DNA of 64,000 nt. Origin: Longibacter salinarum (GTDB lineage: Bacteria > Bacteroidota > Rhodothermia > Rhodothermales > Salinibacteraceae). The stretch covers positions 62,001-126,000 of the forward strand of contig NZ_PDEQ01000007.1 of NCBI RefSeq assembly GCF_002554795.1, read 5' to 3'. Made by a program: the position numbers and the translations under genes. Shown piece by piece: positions 6,291-23,638 of the stretch (its first letter is position 1; each line of letters begins with the position of its first letter). The notes beneath the pieces are model-generated. The model was not told the DNA's origin. It was given only the letters and a program-made list of their open reading frames with translations, and did no database searches.

Positions 6291-7850
6291 CTACTCCGCA
6301 ACAGCGATTTCCACGCGGCGGTTGAGGCGGCGACCGGCGTCCGTCTGGTTGCTTGCGACCGGGCGCGTCTCGCCGTAGCCGGCTGTGTCCAGCCGATCGG
6401 CCTCGATTCCGTGCTCGGTGAGCCAGCGCTTGACGGCTTCCGCGCGTTTCTGAGAGAGCAAACGGTTGGATTCAGCGCCACCCTCGCTGTCGGTGTGGCC
6501 CTCTATGACGAATCGCGTGTCGGATCGGTTCTGCATAACCCGCTGCACAGCCTGCAGGGTCGGCTCGGATTCAGCCTGGATCGTCGCCGAACCCGTGTCG
6601 AACAGAATGTTGCGCAGTCGGACGCGGCCCTCGGCGTTCAGGTTTTCTTCGATCTGAGACGTTTCGCTCTGTGGAGCGAGTTGCAAATCGACGGTCACCT
6701 CCGTGCCCGCTTTGAGGTCGACCGGCTCCGACGTAGAGGAAAATCCAGGTTTCGCGGCCCGCGCCACCACGAGGCCCGCCGGCACGTCGGGAAGGTGGTA
6801 TCGTCCGTCTTGGTCCGTTTCGACTGCGTCCAGTGCGGAGGACACGAGGACGCCCGGCAGCGGGGCTCCAGTTTTCGCGTGTGTTACACGGCCGCGCAGC
6901 GTTCCCGTCGAGGGAAACGTGTCGGGGTTGACGAGCACCTGGACGAAGTCGATCGCGAAGCCATCTCCCGCTCCCGTCGTCGGATCGTCGATTCGCAGCG
7001 AGAGACGGCCATCCTCCAGAAGATCATGGTAACCGGGAAGGATTTCGACGGTGACGAGCTTCCCGATCGGGCCGGTTTGATTGAGCGCGTTCAGCACTTC
7101 TTCCATCACCGGATACCGTTCCCCGTCGAGCGTCACCTGATACGTCGACCCAAAACGCGGGGCCTGAAAGTCGTCGAGAAAGAGCTGCAGCGCCACGGTT
7201 TCCACTTCAATGCCACTCAGGTCCGTCGTCATCTCAATGGCTTCAGCGGGCTCTGCCACCTGCGAGTAGCCGTCCTGCCCTTCCGGCGGCGAGCCATCGT
7301 AGCCCGTGCCGATCATAATGCGATCCGTTCCGGCGGGGTCGCTTTCCTCCGGCTCGAACGGGTACGCGTGCGGTGGCGTCGAGCGCCCCGAGAACGGCGT
7401 AAAGCCCCACGGCCACCCGAACCCGAGATTGTCGATGTCGCCGACGCGCACCAGCAGATCCGCCAGTACGGTGTCCCGTGTGGTAAATGTCGGCTGCGCC
7501 CAGTTGTCCGGCCAGCTGCGCGCCTGCTTCACTCCGGAAACCGTTCGGGCGTTGGGCTGGGCATCCGGGACGCGCGTCTTCAGCCAACACCGGGCCTTCT
7601 CCCCCTGCACGCCAGGCTCTACGTACGTAAACGCAGCACACTGAGGCTCATCTGCGCATCGCCGCGCACACTGCTCGGGCGGGCCATTCATCTCGATCGA
7701 GCGGTAGTCCGCACCAGGTCGATCCGTCTTCGGCTCGATGGTCATGCCGTCTACCTGTGCCCGCGCACCGGGCACCGCAATCACAGCGAAAATAACTACA
7801 CTGATGAATGCAAGCGAGACGGAGACGTTGAGATGGCCAGACATGAACAC
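6291..7850 (-). CDS. Secreted PAN / carboxypeptidase-regulatory / OmpA domain protein
   Basis: A 519-aa exported protein predicted to anchor to peptidoglycan at the outer membrane. Domains in order: signal peptide (residues 1-32, cleavage near ARA-Q); a cysteine-containing PAN/apple-like segment (about 36-115, with CARRCADEPQCAAFTYVE); a beta-rich region (120-305) with YDGSPPEGQDGYSQVAE, probably a carbohydrate-binding-like or jelly-roll fold that I cannot name; a CarboxypepD_reg-like Ig fold (about 312-390, GTLRGRVTHAKTGAPLPGV); and a C-terminal OmpA domain (about 400-519, with GHTDSEGGAESNRLLSQKRAEAV and the peptidoglycan-binding RRLNRRVEIAV). PAN domains bind protein or sugar, so adhesion or matrix attachment is plausible. 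It stands alone, 90 bp upstream of queC. Confidence 0.8.
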   Translation of the reverse strand: MFMSGHLNVSVSLAFISVVIFAVIAVPGARAQVDGMTIEPKTDRPGADYRSIEMNGPPEQCARRCADEPQCAAFTYVEPGVQGEKARCWLKTRVPDAQPNARTVSGVKQARSWPDNWAQPTFTTRDTVLADLLVRVGDIDNLGFGWPWGFTPFSGRSTPPHAYPFEPEESDPAGTDRIMIGTGYDGSPPEGQDGYSQVAEPAEAIEMTTDLSGIEVETVALQLFLDDFQAPRFGSTYQVTLDGERYPVMEEVLNALNQTGPIGKLVTVEILPGYHDLLEDGRLSLRIDDPTTGAGDGFAIDFVQVLVNPDTFPSTGTLRGRVTHAKTGAPLPGVLVSSALDAVETDQDGRYHLPDVPAGLVVARAAKPGFSSTSEPVDLKAGTEVTVDLQLAPQSETSQIEENLNAEGRVRLRNILFDTGSATIQAESEPTLQAVQRVMQNRSDTRFVIEGHTDSEGGAESNRLLSQKRAEAVKRWLTEHGIEADRLDTAGYGETRPVASNQTDAGRRLNRRVEIAVAE

Positions 7851-8074
7851 GGACGCGTGGGCGAAGGGGAAGAGAACCCCGGGCGACAGAAACAGAGCGA
7901 TGGCTAAACATCGACGGCCCGAGTCACGAATTCAACCCGGCTGCCGAGTCCGACGGATCGCTGCGTGTTCGCCGGGCTAATCAAAAAAATCGGTCCCTCC
8001 AGTCGAACTGAAAGAAGCGCAGGCTGCCCTACCGCTGGAAGAGGCAGAAAGGGCCGACAACAAGAGTGTTTAAC

Positions 8075-8103
8075 GGCGGGCCCGGCAGGATTCGAACCTG
8101 CGG
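8075..8103 (-). pseudogene. tRNA-Arg 3'-end fragment (likely attachment-site duplicate)
   Basis: Twenty-nine bases match the T arm and 3' acceptor end of the complete tRNA-Arg gene (10376-10404) with one mismatch, at 8079. The rest of the tRNA is absent. It has the same orientation, as left behind when an element integrates into the 3' end of a tRNA gene. Confidence 0.8.
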
Positions 8104-8143
8104 ATTCGGATGGAGAGACATATTTATGAGGTACGACGTCACC

Positions 8144-8842
8144 TCACTGCAAATTCTCGTGGAACTGAGTCCAGTTGTCCGATGATGGCTTTACACCGGG
8201 TGGGAGCGGTTGAAATCGAAACACCCTGGGCGGGTCGATCGGCTCGCGGCTCCGTCCCGCAAAGTAATTGGGCCGGATGAGTTCGGTGATCACGATCGTG
8301 GTGTCATTCGGAATGTGACCGACGTACGTCCATGGATCGTTCATAAATTTCTGAAAGACAATGTTTGCGCCTGCATACAACCTCATCGTCTGAATTGAGA
8401 TCGAATCATCAAAAACCCGAAATCCGCCCCATAGCAGGTTGATCGGTGAATCTCGCTCACCCGTTTTATCCAAAAGGCTGTGTTCGAAATGATCGATCTT
8501 GTGTACTTCGGACGGAGATTCGAAGGGTGTAGCATGTGGCGACCCATAGACGACACGTCTTTCACCACTGATTCCAGAATGAGCAGCAGTCCCGTCTTTC
8601 CATAAAATCAGAGGCTGTGCAAGCCGTTCAGACCACGTGGTGTCCAGATGCGTGTAGTACCCATCCAGCCGAAGCACAGACGTGTCGATTACGCCCGGCT
8701 GACTCTGATGCGTGTAGTGCTTCCCATTTACGCCGAGGCGCCAGATGCACCCTGAGAGAAGCAAAACGAGGGTCAACACCACCCCGAAGGACATGTCGTG
8801 CTGTGCTAGGATCATCTGCATGCCAGTGCCATCGTCTTGCAT
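8144..8842 (-). CDS. Putative lipoprotein, unknown family
   Basis: I do not recognise the family. The frame encodes up to 232 residues. A hydrophobic stretch followed by the lipobox LLLSGC marks a lipoprotein signal; a later ATG (near 8794, MSFGVVLTL) would give a more standard signal peptide than the first ATG. The mature part is beta-rich with aromatic residues and no conserved catalytic pattern I can name. It lies downstream of a second lipoprotein gene on the same strand (35 bp gap or slightly more), so they are probably co-transcribed. AT-richer than neighbouring housekeeping genes, inside the candidate tRNA-Arg island. Confidence 0.6.
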   Translation of the reverse strand: MQDDGTGMQMILAQHDMSFGVVLTLVLLLSGCIWRLGVNGKHYTHQSQPGVIDTSVLRLDGYYTHLDTTWSERLAQPLILWKDGTAAHSGISGERRVVYGSPHATPFESPSEVHKIDHFEHSLLDKTGERDSPINLLWGGFRVFDDSISIQTMRLYAGANIVFQKFMNDPWTYVGHIPNDTTIVITELIRPNYFAGRSREPIDPPRVFRFQPLPPGVKPSSDNWTQFHENLQ

Positions 8843-8877
8843 ACCGGTTCGGGTGTGAAGAACATCGAAGTCGGATT

Positions 8878-9996
8878 TTACTTCTGGGAGTCATCTGAGG
8901 CATCGGAGGACATCGAATCCTTGACGGCGAAGACATCAAAGCCAGTCGACAGTCGTTTGACCAGAGCGACATCAGTGCCTCTCTTTCGATCGCGAAGGTA
9001 CAGTTCGTACCTGAACCACCCCGATGAACCTTTAACTCGACAGCGGTACAATACGTATCGCTGATCGACGACGCGCGCAAAACGGATGGGACACTCATCG
9101 GTGTCCCGTTCGAACATGGACTGCACAGCGCCATCGCGGAGTCTGACGCGTGCGACACCGCGGCGACCGGGATCTTTATTGCCTCTCCACGGCGTGCTGT
9201 ACGTTCCCAGTAGCGCATTTCCTGTTGAATCCCATGGCACCAGGGGCTCGAAGATGAGCGGACGGTCCGCGTACGTTGGCCAACTGAGGTCGTGAATCCG
9301 CTGCCATGGATGAAGGGAGAACACACTCAGGCGTCGCTCTTTCTCCATACGGTGACCCTGTACCCAGTCGACGACGAGACGAGAGCCGCCGGGCGAGAAG
9401 TTATGTTCCAGCACCCGGCCTTCGAACGCCTCCACTCGGAGCGTGTCTTGCAGCGATGCTGCGAGTACGACAAGCGTTGAGTCATTGTAGAAGTCCTGGT
9501 TTCGTCGTCCCGTCACAGCGACCTCTCCGTCCGGAGAGACGCTCACTCCCCCCCATAAACCGTACACCAAAAGTTGTCCTTCAGCACGAGAGGGCTGAGC
9601 AAACATACTGTCTCGCCGCGTGAACGACGGAAGGCGCTCAAGAGGCACACTGCTCGGGATATACCGCGGCGCCGCGTGTGCACCATAGTATACAGGACCT
9701 ACCTTGCCTCGCTTCTCAAGAGTACCCTCAGGTAGACGTAGTTCGAAGATGTAAGGCGCACGCCGGTAGCTAGATGGATTGGTGATACCGACGAAGGTGA
9801 CGACGGCATCGGGACCGACAGGGGTCTCATCGTCGTCTACCAGAAGATCGACGTTGTATCCACATCCGCTCAGCACCGCCACGAGCAGCGCTACGAAGTA
9901 CAGTCGACCACTGAATCGGACGTGCGAAATCGATCTCTCCCGCATTCCCCTGTCAGATATTCCAGCATGAGTCGCATTCGCCATGTCAACACTCAT
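8878..9996 (-). CDS. Putative lipoprotein with propeller-like repeats
   Basis: Family not recognised. Up to 372 residues; the true start may be MRERSISHVRF (about residue 18) or earlier. A hydrophobic segment ends in the lipobox AVLSGC. The mature region contains SPDG-like motifs (GVSVSPDGEVAVTGRR and VLEHNFSPGGSRLVVDW), reminiscent of TolB/WD-type beta-propeller blades, and ends in a serine/aspartate-rich tail. It sits directly upstream of the other island lipoprotein, and the two probably form an operon. A cell-surface role is a guess. Confidence 0.6.
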   Translation of the reverse strand: MSVDMANATHAGISDRGMRERSISHVRFSGRLYFVALLVAVLSGCGYNVDLLVDDDETPVGPDAVVTFVGITNPSSYRRAPYIFELRLPEGTLEKRGKVGPVYYGAHAAPRYIPSSVPLERLPSFTRRDSMFAQPSRAEGQLLVYGLWGGVSVSPDGEVAVTGRRNQDFYNDSTLVVLAASLQDTLRVEAFEGRVLEHNFSPGGSRLVVDWVQGHRMEKERRLSVFSLHPWQRIHDLSWPTYADRPLIFEPLVPWDSTGNALLGTYSTPWRGNKDPGRRGVARVRLRDGAVQSMFERDTDECPIRFARVVDQRYVLYRCRVKGSSGWFRYELYLRDRKRGTDVALVKRLSTGFDVFAVKDSMSSDASDDSQK

Positions 9997-18863: not shown

Positions 18864-21365
18864 GTGGATCCCGACTCCTCCATTCACTGGGGATCGTACC
18901 CCGCCCTGCTCGTCGCCGGCGCTCTCGCGACCGGCATTCTTATCGCCTCAACTGGCTGGCTGGTCTCACCGTGGACGTGGAGCGGCGGAGCAGGACTCAG
19001 CGTGCTGCTCTGGATAATGGCCACCTGGGATGAGCGACGGCGCCTTGTGTCGCTCGCCAACCTGATGCGCCTGTCTGGTGCGATCGTCCTCGGTATTTCA
19101 GTCGGGGCCCTGCGCCTGGTCGTCTTCGATGCACCGACCGATCGAAGTCTCCACCGCCAGGCCCAACACGTCATTGCGAACGGAGACACCACCACGATCA
19201 CGGGACACGTTGCAGGTGCCCCAACGCGAGCAAATGGAAGCACGAGATTCAAGTTTTCGGTGGCCACCTGGCGAAGCGAAAACGATGTTCGCCCGGCCCG
19301 AGGAATGGTTCAGGTCACCCTCCGCTCTTCGCCCTGGGACGACGCGCCGGCGCCCTTCCCGGACGTGTTCGAAGGAGATCGACTCTCTCTCCATGGACAG
19401 CTGGAGCCGCCACCGGAACCACGCAATCCGGCCGACTTCGACTACGGCGCTTATCTCAGTCGGCGTGGCATCCACAGCACGCTCTACGTGTCGCAAGCGG
19501 CCGATGTGCGAATCCAAACACGGGCAAATGCACCTCTGCAGCGACTCGTCAACCAATCCAGAGCATGGATCCGCATGCTCACAGAGCGACATGTGCCAAC
19601 CGACACGTCGCAAGCAGTCTTGCAAGCGCTCCTACTTGGGGATAAAAGCCACGTCAACGACCGGCAGCGAGAGGCTTTTGCGCGAACGGGCCTGATGCAC
19701 CTGCTTGCCGTTTCGGGGCTTCACGTTCTGCTCGTCGGCATGGTGCTCTACACGCTTCTGCGCCCCATCCTTCACCGCCTTCGCCTTTCATGGCGCGCCA
19801 TCGAGATCCTGCGAGCGGGGTTGACGATCGGCGTATTGGTTCTCTACATGCTGCTGACGGGCAGTCCACCGTCGGTTGTGCGAGCTGTGATCATGGCGGC
19901 ACTGCTGATCGGGGGGATCGTTCTCCAGCGATCGGCGCACACGCTCAACACGCTCGGTGTGGCGGCCATCGTGTTGCTCATGCTGCGGCCGACGGCTCTG
20001 TTCGACGCCGGATTCCAGCTCTCCCTCTCGGCCGTGACCGGCATTGTCGTGCTCAACCCGCGCATCGAGGAAGCCAGCCGAGCCATTCTACCCGAACGGT
20101 GGATGACCATGGCTCCAGTCGAGTGGCTTGTATCGATGATAACGGTTTCGCTGGCAGCAACGCTCGGCACCGCGCCCGTCCTGCTCCATCATTTCGGCTT
20201 CGTTGCTCTGGGTGGCCTTGTACTGAACGTCGTGGCGATCCCACTCACGGCCATCGGGCTCACCGCTGGACTCCTGATGGTTCTTGCTAACCCAGTCGCC
20301 CCGGTTGCGGCCTCTTCATTTGGCATTGCAGCCGATGCGGCAATTCGACTGCTGGCGGAGACGGCTCTCTGGGGAGAAACGTGGATGGGGGCGGGTCTCG
20401 AACTCACGAACCCGAGTGGATGGACGCTTCTCGCGCTCATAACGGGCGTTCTCGTTGTTGCTCAATTTCCTCGCCCGCGACATCGATGGCGATTAGTCAC
20501 AATAACGGGGTTAGCGATCTGTATTAGCTTCTTCGTCAGGCTTCTATCTGGAGATGCAACGCCAAAACTAACGGTGACATTCCTCGACGTCGGTCAGGGA
20601 GATGCCGTCCTCGTCACGACGCCGGAGCAGAGACACATGCTGATCGATGGAGGTCCCGTCACGCCATACAGTGACGCCGGTGCATCCGTGATTCAACCTC
20701 ACCTCGAACATCTCGGGATTGAGTCCCTCGATGTTGTCGTGGCGACGCACCCAGACAGTGATCATCTCGGTGGATTGCCGACCCTCTTCGAATCGGTCTC
20801 CATTGGCCAGTTCATTCATAGCGGCCGCCGCGCCTCTTCGGACTTGTTCGAGCGAAGCCGAGCACTCCTCCACTCAAAGTCAATTCCCTCTCGCGCGGTC
20901 GTGACCGGAGATCGGTTGGCTCTGGGTTCCGACGTCATTGTCGAGGTTCTCAGCCCACCGCCGCAATCCATTTCGGGAGCCTGGTCCGAAAATGATGCAT
21001 CGGTGGTTCTCGCGATGACCTTTGGGAAAACTCAGATCCTTCTACCCGGAGATATTGAGGCAACGGCCGAGGCGTGGCTTGTCGAGACCTTCGCCGAGGA
21101 GCTCGACGCAAATCTCGTCAAAGTTGCGCATCACGGCTCTTCGACGAGCAGTTCTTCTGCGCTGGTCCAATCCGTTACCGGCGGGTCGGTCTCCGAAATT
21201 ATTGCCGTCATCCCAGTTGGCCGCCACAACAAATTCGGAATGCCCGTTCCAGAAATACTGACACGTTGGCATGAATCCGGAACGCGCGTTTTACGGACCG
21301 ATCTCCACGGTTCTGTCTCTGTGCACAGCGATGGTCGATCTCTTTCTGCTCAAACGATTCGCTGA
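18864..21365 (+). CDS. comEC: DNA uptake channel ComEC/Rec2
   Basis: Inner-membrane channel that passes single-stranded DNA into the cytoplasm during natural transformation. GTG start at 18864. Order: two or three N-terminal membrane helices; an OB-fold-like DUF4131 region (about 95-230); the Competence core of several helices with LLGDKSHVNDRQREAFARTGLMHLLAVSGLHV; and a C-terminal metallo-beta-lactamase domain (from about residue 570) with FLDVGQGDAVLV, ATHPDSDHLGG and KVAHHGSSTSSS, keeping its metal-binding histidines. The 833 aa length is full. It is the only competence gene here and directly abuts the proposed replication origin. Confidence 0.95.
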   Translation: MDPDSSIHWGSYPALLVAGALATGILIASTGWLVSPWTWSGGAGLSVLLWIMATWDERRRLVSLANLMRLSGAIVLGISVGALRLVVFDAPTDRSLHRQAQHVIANGDTTTITGHVAGAPTRANGSTRFKFSVATWRSENDVRPARGMVQVTLRSSPWDDAPAPFPDVFEGDRLSLHGQLEPPPEPRNPADFDYGAYLSRRGIHSTLYVSQAADVRIQTRANAPLQRLVNQSRAWIRMLTERHVPTDTSQAVLQALLLGDKSHVNDRQREAFARTGLMHLLAVSGLHVLLVGMVLYTLLRPILHRLRLSWRAIEILRAGLTIGVLVLYMLLTGSPPSVVRAVIMAALLIGGIVLQRSAHTLNTLGVAAIVLLMLRPTALFDAGFQLSLSAVTGIVVLNPRIEEASRAILPERWMTMAPVEWLVSMITVSLAATLGTAPVLLHHFGFVALGGLVLNVVAIPLTAIGLTAGLLMVLANPVAPVAASSFGIAADAAIRLLAETALWGETWMGAGLELTNPSGWTLLALITGVLVVAQFPRPRHRWRLVTITGLAICISFFVRLLSGDATPKLTVTFLDVGQGDAVLVTTPEQRHMLIDGGPVTPYSDAGASVIQPHLEHLGIESLDVVVATHPDSDHLGGLPTLFESVSIGQFIHSGRRASSDLFERSRALLHSKSIPSRAVVTGDRLALGSDVIVEVLSPPPQSISGAWSENDASVVLAMTFGKTQILLPGDIEATAEAWLVETFAEELDANLVKVAHHGSSTSSSSALVQSVTGGSVSEIIAVIPVGRHNKFGMPVPEILTRWHESGTRVLRTDLHGSVSVHSDGRSLSAQTIR

Positions 21366-21399
21366 TGGCAAACCCACGCCGAAAATCGCTGGGCACAAA

Positions 21400-22016
21400 C
21401 GATGGATTTTGGTCACCCAGGTGTGGACGTGAAAATGTACTACTAACCGAGAATATCAGAGCGGAGTGAACTGGTATACTCTTGTATACCAAAGTTACCT
21501 GATCCAAACTGGTATACGGTCCACATACAGTTGTCTGGCTCGAAATCGGACTTATCCACACTTCCTTACTATGTACGAGGTGTATAAAATTTTTTTAGAA
21601 GAGTAGTGATTGTTGTTGGGCGTGTGGATATGTGGAGAACCAAATCGCCCACATTCGCAAGACGGCGATGTGTATAACTTGGGTATGGATCCCCAGGGAT
21701 GTCCACAGTCGAGACCGGGTTCAACCATGACTTAGGTCGAAAAACCGGATATATCCCGAAGTTATCCACGTTTCCACACTTATCCACACCAAAACCGGGG
21801 GATCCGGGCGAAAAGTTGTGCACCGTTGTCCACACTGTTGAGAACTTTCGGAAATGTGTGGACGAACCACGAGGTTATGCACGGCCTTTCGCGCCGGTCT
21901 CCCGGTCAAGGTGTTATCAAGACGTTATGCCCCACTTGTCCACGGGTTATCCACAGTCATGTGGATGGCGTTATGAGGCGTTCTGGAGCAGGAAGCATAG
22001 ATCGAAACTGGTACAC
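21400..22016. other. Candidate chromosomal replication origin (oriC)
   Basis: A 600-bp non-coding region with many DnaA boxes. Exact TTATCCACA occurs at 21552-21560, 21780-21788 and 21947-21955; one-mismatch forms at 21762-21770, 21826-21834 and (opposite strand) 21623-21631; weaker ones at 21699, 21875, 21936 and 21960. An AT-rich stretch with a T7 run lies at 21585-21612, a possible unwinding element. Gene direction switches around here, mostly leftward to the left and rightward to the right. dnaA itself is not adjacent, as is common in relatives. Inferred, not proven. Confidence 0.75.
21469..21517. promoter_or_regulatory. GGTATAC palindrome with repeated half-site
   Basis: GGTATAC and GTATACC form a perfect inverted repeat (21473-21490, 4-bp spacer). 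The 11-mer AACTGGTATAC at 21469 is repeated at 21507. It looks like a protein-binding site at the edge of the proposed origin. Confidence 0.5.
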
Positions 22017-23330
22017 TTACTTCCCCAATCGATCGAACATTTCCCGTTTATAGTCTTCGACGCCTGGCTGATTGAAGGGGTTAACGCCGAGCAGATAGCC
22101 GCTGACGGCGACCGCGTGCTCGAAGAAATACAGCAACTCTCCTAGCGGACCAGGGTCGATCGAGTCCATCCAGAGGGACAGAATCGGGACGCCGCCATCG
22201 CTGTGGGCCTGTGCTGTTCCCTCGTATGCGCCCCGTGTGACGTCCGACATCGTCTTCCCGGCCACGTAATTCAACCCGTCGAGATTGTCTTCGCTCTGCG
22301 GAATTGTCAGGTCGCCGTCGTCGTCTTCGACCATCAGAAACGTCTCAAGCACGATGCGCTGACCGTCCTGCATGTACTGTCCGAGGGAGTGCAAGTCGGT
22401 GGTGTATTGAACCACAGCCGGAAACAGCCCGGTGCCGTCCTTCCCCTCGCTCTCGCCCATGAGCTGTTGCCACCACCCGCCGATCGAGCGGAGCTTCGGC
22501 TCGAACACGGCGAGGACATCCACATCATAGCCCTCTTCGAGCAGCAGGTAACGAAGGCCGGCGTACTGCAGGGCCGGATTGTCTTCGGCATCTTTCAGCT
22601 CCTCGCATGCCGATACGGCTCCGTAGAAAAACGAGCGGATGTCGATTCCAGCCGCCGCGATCGGTAGCAGTCCCACCGGTGTCATGACGGAGAACCGGCC
22701 GCCGACATCTCGCGGGATGACGTACTTTTTATAAGGATGCTCGTCCCGGAGCGTGTTCAGCACGCCCTTCTCTGGATCCGTGGTGACGATGATCCGGTCG
22801 TCAGCATCTTCGAAGTGATCCTCCATCCACTGACGGACGAATCGGAAGGAAAGAGCCGTTTCGAGCGTCGTTCCACTTTTGGAGATGACGTTGACGAAGA
22901 CACTCTTGCCCTCGAGGCTCTCGAGCAGCTCTCGCAAGTAGGCCCCGCTCGTCTGATTTCCGGCAAAGAGGACCTCCGGCGGATCATCCGGTTGATCACT
23001 TTTCCCGGGCAGGTCGGGCGTGGCTGGAGAGGTTTTTTTGAAATAGGGAGTCAGGGCATCAATAACGGCTTTAGCCCCGAGATACGACCCGCCAATGCCG
23101 AGGCACAGCAGCACATCCGCATCACGACGGAGATGGGCGGCCGTCGTCTCGATGTCTTCGAGGAGTGCATCGTCCGGGTCGGTGAGCAGATCGCGCCAGC
23201 CGAGAAAATCGCTTCCTGCACCGGATTTGTCGAGTACGGCCTGGTGGGCGTCGGTCAGTTTCGGCTGCAGGTCGTCAAGAGCGCCATCATCGAGCATGTC
23301 GAGGGCGCGCGAATCGTCGAGTCGGATCAT
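22017..23330 (-). CDS. pgi: Glucose-6-phosphate isomerase
   Basis: Interconverts glucose-6-phosphate and fructose-6-phosphate. Seen: LLCLGIGGSYLGAKAVIDAL (sugar-phosphate site), NVISKSGTTLETALSFRF, the DVGGRFSVMTPVGLLPIAAAG block, and a late helix with FNQPGVEDYKREMF. The start is set at the ATG at 23330 (MIRLDDSRALDML), because the 60 residues encoded upstream in the same frame show no family resemblance. This gives 437 aa, the short Bacillus-type length. Located immediately right of the proposed origin, convergent with nothing. Confidence 0.95.
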   Translation of the reverse strand: MIRLDDSRALDMLDDGALDDLQPKLTDAHQAVLDKSGAGSDFLGWRDLLTDPDDALLEDIETTAAHLRRDADVLLCLGIGGSYLGAKAVIDALTPYFKKTSPATPDLPGKSDQPDDPPEVLFAGNQTSGAYLRELLESLEGKSVFVNVISKSGTTLETALSFRFVRQWMEDHFEDADDRIIVTTDPEKGVLNTLRDEHPYKKYVIPRDVGGRFSVMTPVGLLPIAAAGIDIRSFFYGAVSACEELKDAEDNPALQYAGLRYLLLEEGYDVDVLAVFEPKLRSIGGWWQQLMGESEGKDGTGLFPAVVQYTTDLHSLGQYMQDGQRIVLETFLMVEDDDGDLTIPQSEDNLDGLNYVAGKTMSDVTRGAYEGTAQAHSDGGVPILSLWMDSIDPGPLGELLYFFEHAVAVSGYLLGVNPFNQPGVEDYKREMFDRLGK

Positions 23331-23638
23331 AAACGAGAAGTGGTGGAGTGCGAAACGATAGCGAGGTCCTGCAAAATTCGTCCTGCCGAATGACAGGAGA
23401 CACTGAAATGAGCAACCGGCGCCCGTGATGCATCGGGTGGATGACGCATAGCCACTGGGATGCAGCCGGACACGCACAACGTACAAAGCAGCCGGTGAAC
23501 CGTGCAGCATCCTCAGGTGGAACTCGTGACTCCGCCGTCGGCGTTGTCTTTATGTGGCGCGGCATTCGTCGGATGGTCCCGTTCCGGATCATCGCGACGC
23601 CGCGGTTCGCTGATACACATCTTGTAGACTGATCGACC
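23331..23638. other. Intergenic region pgi / redoxin
   Basis: About 310 bp between divergent pgi and the redoxin gene. No reading frame, RNA or strong hairpin is seen; promoters for both genes are expected. Confidence 0.5.

Follow-up and report, generated by a model that had tools for sequence, protein, structure and literature searches.

The cluster of DnaA boxes between comEC and pgi of Longibacter salinarum almost certainly marks the chromosome origin oriC, predicted here with its location given by GC skew, and taking the explanation as a whole we consider it likely that this origin works bidirectionally and is opened via DnaA-trios with a central thymine. As an origin, the locus is an ordinary prediction with good support. 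Beyond what had originally been predicted for this locus, the analysis revealed an unwinding module, its unusual trios, a conservation across the order and a second dnaA gene.

The analysed stretch of 64 kb (the window) corresponds to C7:62001-126000, with C7 being a contig of 228 kb in a draft genome of 4.4 Mb in 22 contigs; positions without a contig name refer to the window. DnaA boxes were searched with the consensus TTATCCACA and counted if they carried at most one mismatch. GC skew was analyzed for contig C7 and for spaced 20-kb samples of two complete relatives (G042 and G008). The assembly yielded no SSU rRNA on which a 16S placement could be based.

Position of the predicted origin

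The predicted oriC region is the gap (21366..22016) enclosed by the 3′ ends of two convergent genes, comEC on the plus strand to the left (18864..21365; Pfam Competence, DUF4131 and Lactamase_B) and pgi on the minus strand to the right (22017..23510; Pfam PGI), the two flanking genes already named in the original prediction. Within 404 bp of this gap (21552-21955; 83.55-83.96 kb of C7), eight DnaA boxes were found, three perfect and five with one mismatch, compared to the at least three perfect and three near-perfect boxes in 400 bp noticed before. Several of them had been described as co-oriented, and all three perfect boxes are indeed located on the plus strand. Based on the rest of the 228-kb contig, 0.07 boxes are expected in 404 bp (P = 1.5e-14), and with all such segments of C7 allowed for, P is still ~9e-12 (about 1e-11), so that the cluster is beyond chance. 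The complete window contains 22 boxes with at most one mismatch versus 4.96 expected from shuffled sequences, and 3 of the 18 perfect boxes of the 4.4-Mb genome belong to the cluster. Further close pairs of perfect boxes are present at C5:59696 and C7:179595; the latter was rejected as a rival site because no dense cluster surrounds the pair. A comparison with oriC-like DNA on plasmids gave no match. The DNA fold of the cluster core was only mildly better than that of shuffled sequences (z -2.1), for which reason a core hairpin was set aside.

Along the whole 228-kb contig C7, the cumulative GC skew drops until 85.0 kb, where it reaches its minimum only 1.3 kb away from the cluster (83.7 kb), and then climbs. 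The best change point is at 85 kb with a 95% interval of 74-97 kb, and none of 1000 permutations was as good. Thus, the GC-skew test set beforehand placed the minimum at the cluster and not elsewhere on the contig, which supports the reading of the locus as chromosome origin. A minimum at the locus was also seen in the complete relatives G042, G008 and G012. In G042, the homologous cluster (32,169) and the skew minimum (32,002) nearly coincide, with dnaA located at the start of the sequence. In G008 (cluster 12,671, minimum 17,420) and G012 (1,911,778 and 1,916,571), where the cluster adjoins comEC and the distance to the minimum is 4.7-4.8 kb, as well as in G017 (2,544,646 and 2,539,911) and G004 (2,429,019 and 2,423,093), the minima are ~5-6 kb off the cluster, an inexact match within method noise. 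G037 and G033 had no clear local skew minimum at the cluster. The 20-kb samples covering whole chromosomes showed a flip of the skew sign at the cluster and a second one between 1.52 and 1.66 Mb (G042) or between 1.82 and 1.97 Mb (G008), with one discordant sample in each genome. Sign changes at the cluster and about half-way round are the expectation for one origin and one terminus.

Also, the comEC-pgi neighbourhood of the cluster is kept in relatives; in the nearest named relative among those compared, the draft genome GSL.Bin3 (locus L053), Pgi is 88% identical and the box cluster is present, too. The cluster also provides a firm predicted oriC address for relatives in Salinibacter and Rhodothermus, with a predicted distance from dnaA of about 11-13 kb in Salinibacter ruber and 32 kb in Rhodothermus marinus. 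No paper on a Salinibacter oriC was found in the literature searched, with subscription journals mostly outside it. Gene direction, originally described as mainly leftward to the left and mainly rightward to the right, amounts to 67% of coding bp on the plus strand on the right and 53% on the plus strand on the left (crude gene call, window). As this strand bias is weak as an argument for an origin, the GC skew carries the case instead.

The vicinity of dnaA and dnaN is the common site of oriC in bacteria. Here, the main dnaA gene lies beside dnaN at C7:49678-51405, outside the window and ~32 kb to the left, which agrees with the earlier remark that dnaA does not adjoin the cluster; a second copy was found on contig C1. 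Three perfect boxes are located upstream of the main dnaA (C7:49323-49548; L010:9323-9548). With these boxes 5′ of a gene whose surroundings commonly host oriC, the true origin could be sought at dnaA (C7 ~49.5 kb), the comEC-pgi cluster then being a DnaA-binding control site for titration or reactivation. The skew makes this very improbable: it does not turn at dnaA, it is still negative (-0.027) over the ~34-kb stretch between the dnaA boxes and the cluster, its 95% interval leaves out 49 kb, and in G042 the minimum is found at the comEC-pgi cluster, 32 kb from dnaA. In addition, no trios were found beside the dnaA-upstream boxes, and on the skew together with the absence of trios an origin at dnaA was rejected. 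The boxes upstream of dnaA probably serve autoregulation or are remains of an older dnaA-linked origin.

Three further observations concern the surroundings. A gene for the replication restart helicase PriA is located 27 kb from the origin (priA, window:48277-50757, plus strand). On the minus strand (window:35298-38099), a single open frame of 933 aa fuses an S9 peptidase and a DUF3108 domain. Farther to the right on the contig, C7:142000-176000 (L015-L016) has a GC content of 47-59% versus 60% for the contig and is likely a genomic island.

Candidate unwinding module and predicted T-centred trios

The segment 21583-21639 has the layout of the basal unwinding system (BUS) of Bacillus subtilis (PMC8287927), with the plus-strand order AT tract, three TTG, GGCG, TGTGGATA and TGTGGAGAA. 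The AT-rich tract TATAAAATTTTTTTA (21583..21597) beside the boxes is the candidate duplex-unwinding element, is AT-rich also in the relatives compared, and includes the T7 stretch (21590-21596) to which attention had been drawn before. It is followed on the plus strand by the trinucleotide repeat TTGTTGTTG (21610..21618), i.e. three predicted T-centred DnaA-trios 5′-TTG-TTG-TTG-3′ (3′-GTT-5′), with trio 1 (21616-21618) closest to the tandem boxes. The GC-rich spacer GGCG (21619..21622) then leads to two co-oriented boxes on the minus strand, ATATCCACA (21623..21631) with a conserved TGTGGA core and TTCTCCACA (21631..21639) with a conserved ATGTGGA core, both with one mismatch. With 4 bp, the trio tract is inside the published limit of 16 bp from a box (PMC8287927), on the same strand and side. 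The BUS survey demanded a middle adenine and left 15% of origins without trios, and its authors suspected deviant trios lacking this base (PMC8287927). Trios 1-3 of the window read 3′-GTT-5′ and not 3′-NAN-5′, the form of which most of the remaining families in the order have at least three copies.

The remaining boxes are the perfect "left box" (21552..21560, plus strand), which lies to the left of the AT tract and points towards it, TTATACACA (21669..21677, minus strand, one mismatch), TTATCCACG (21762..21770, plus strand, one mismatch), a perfect box at 21780..21788 (plus strand), TTGTCCACA (21826..21834, plus strand, one mismatch, TCCACA core conserved), and a perfect box at 21947..21955 (plus strand), where GTTATCCACA is kept in the aligned relatives. 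In the proposed mechanism, DnaA would bind the tandem boxes (21623-21639), aided by boxes further right, and a DnaA oligomer would grow leftward over the GC-rich spacer onto the plus-strand repeats (21610-21618). The oligomer would then open the AT tract (21583-21597), followed by loading of the helicases. The base entering the DnaA pocket would be thymine, as the repeats are 5′-TTG/TTA-3′ and not 5′-TAG-3′.

Layout and register were tabulated in 38 genomes. Most families of the order share this layout, with a spacer of 4 (sometimes 5) bp. Trio 1 is 5′-TAG-3′ in nine families outside f1, mostly with further TAG repeats behind it. TTG or TTA occupies trios 1-3 in g1, the genus of the window, and in g2, g5, g6 and g8, altogether 17 genomes with unchanged register and 4-bp spacer, except that trio 1 is CTA in one of the 17. 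Mixed tracts are found in two sister genera, g4 (TAG followed by four TTG) and g3 (three TAG followed by two TTG). As this comparison shows, the central trio base is changed from adenine to thymine, in register with the TAG trios of sister families. A quick tree of the main DnaA, in which several forks are open, places g3 and g4 within the group of TTG genera, so that the tract would have undergone repeated changes or a partial reversion. No earlier report of T-centred (deviant) trios was found in the literature searched, with subscription journals mostly outside it.

From its sequence and conservation, we lean towards the TTG tract being read by DnaA as trios. TTGTTGTTG is unique in the 228-kb contig, and in 19 aligned relatives the sole conserved blocks are the box cores and TTGTTGTTGTT. 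Three points speak against such a reading. By analogy, an exchange of A for T would be expected to be harmful, as it is in trios 1-3 of B. subtilis (PMC10721633). Furthermore, single T-centred trios also occur in families f3, f4 and f5, so that the tract could reflect drift in a redundant element. Finally, the work might be done instead by GAT/AAT-like trios next to the left box.

The last point leads to an alternative in which the cluster is oriC and the TTG tract is unread, unwinding having shifted to the left box at 21552 and an opposite-strand, A-centred trio-like sequence. The minus strand next to the left box indeed reads 3′-GAT-5′ or 3′-AAT-5′, with possible facing trios 3′-AAT-GAT-5′ at 21566..21571 after a 5-nt spacer, a weak and optional element at whose site relatives have a CCCTAnTATG-like sequence. 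Also, g4 and 14 of the 17 genomes whose trios are T-centred have a perfect TTATCCACA as left box, which is imperfect or absent in TAG genomes. We nevertheless regard this alternative as unlikely, because no conserved block exists there beyond the core of the left box whereas TTGTTGTTGTT is conserved, because register and T-centre are kept across five genera, which is unexpected for a dead tract, and because the TTG trios of G018 and G019 are accompanied by a poor left box. The left box may provide a second loading point opposite the first or, if the TTG tract is dead, be its successor element.

DnaA proteins and their trio pocket

The main DnaA has Thr at the position of Asn187, Val at that of Ile190 and Ser at that of Arg202 (B. 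subtilis numbering). E. coli DnaA likewise has a valine at the Ile190 position. The second dnaA gene is full-length and located on the minus strand of C1:50001-70000 (L021) at 7592-9361; its product, DnaA2, is 43% identical to the main DnaA and has Asp183, Ser187, Val193 and Ser202. Both proteins keep the Walker A and Walker B motifs, the arginine finger and the box-binding motif. The pair Asn187 and Arg202 is thus replaced by Thr/Ser in the main DnaA and by Ser/Ser in DnaA2; by the BUS paper's own account, these two residues are not universal in DnaA.

Cryo-EM of the B. subtilis protein showed a bond between the middle adenine of the trio and Asn187, and initiation is impaired if thymine takes the place of this adenine in trios 1-3 (PMC10721633). 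From the residues at this position, we infer that Thr (or Ser) in place of Asn187 may render the pocket thymine-tolerant. Thr187 is also present in the TAG families f7, f10 and f12 and in g3, g7 and g9. Its occurrence in TAG families indicates that Thr187 preceded the switch and was at most permissive, and an exchange of N187 to T was rejected as simple cause because Thr187 does not track the switch. The trio-binding residues of the main DnaA are identical in the window's genome and in g3, despite different proximal trios, which fits a pocket accepting both bases; tolerance of both A and T would be the simplest reading of these sequences.

Alternatively, DnaA2 with its altered pocket (Asp183, Ser187, Val193) could open the origin and have imposed the TTG trios. 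The intact motifs of DnaA2 would allow such a role, and the DnaA2 proteins of g1, g6 and g8, all of them TTG genera, form one clade. As this clade branches off outside that of the main DnaA, DnaA2 either predates the switch or is foreign to it. Moreover, DnaA2 was not found in g2 and g5 (three genomes), the assemblies of which are 56-84% complete and carry TTG trios, whereas f9 and f14 have a second DnaA yet TAG trios. As its distribution is not a strict match, DnaA2 was rejected as cause, a role we hold to be improbable, and the link of the second DnaA to the trio switch is weak. Further divergent second dnaA genes exist in families f2, f5, f9 and f14. Two DnaA boxes lie just upstream of the second dnaA in genus g1 only. 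A g2 draft (G002, contig C544) contains two very divergent DnaA-like genes with Asn187 and Arg202 (L125 and L127), ~24 kb apart, which we ascribe to contamination or a mobile element.

Relation to known unwinding systems

The module shares with the BUS of B. subtilis (boxes 6/7; PMC8287927, PMC10721633) the tandem co-oriented boxes, the short GC-rich spacer, a trinucleotide repeat of equal strand and side, and then AT-rich DNA, and the TAG repeats of B. subtilis are those of the relatives in the order. It differs in the middle base of trios 1-3, which is T and not A, in the residues of the main DnaA at Asn187 and Arg202, and in an oriC that is not beside dnaA.

E. coli DnaA binds TT[G/A]T(T) in the upper strand of the unwinding element (described in PMC10316083). 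This motif is present in the window on the TGTGGATAA-bearing strand, as TTGTTGTTG at 21610-21618 holds overlapping TTGTT, and in E. coli, too, the origin is apart from dnaA. By this analogy, the mode of opening might resemble the reading of TT[G/A]T(T) on the corresponding strand in E. coli. Unlike in E. coli, the motif here has a strict 3-base register, begins only 4 bp away from the tandem boxes and is a positional homologue of the TAG trios in sister families.

The T-centred trios may represent a naturally occurring variant of the code by which origins are opened. It is an evenly balanced possibility that Salinibacteraceae switched the base captured by DnaA from A to T via intermediate genera whose tracts mix TAG and TTG, and via a Thr187 pocket accepting both bases, thereby linking the trio mode of B. 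subtilis with the TT[G/A]T(T) mode of E. coli. The evolutionary series from TAG via mixed to all-TTG/TTA tracts, with matching DnaA sequences, would offer a path along which the ancestral mode could have evolved into unwinding of the E. coli type. A coexistence of trinucleotide repeats beside a DnaA box array with a TT[G/A]T(T)-type motif is also found in the oriC of Thermotoga maritima, which has an eTrio of three TAG repeats and TTATT, with the eTrio repeats being essential for unwinding (PMC10316083). In T. maritima, TAG is the essential repeat and stands next to non-canonical boxes, whereas here the repeat itself is TTG and the boxes are canonical.
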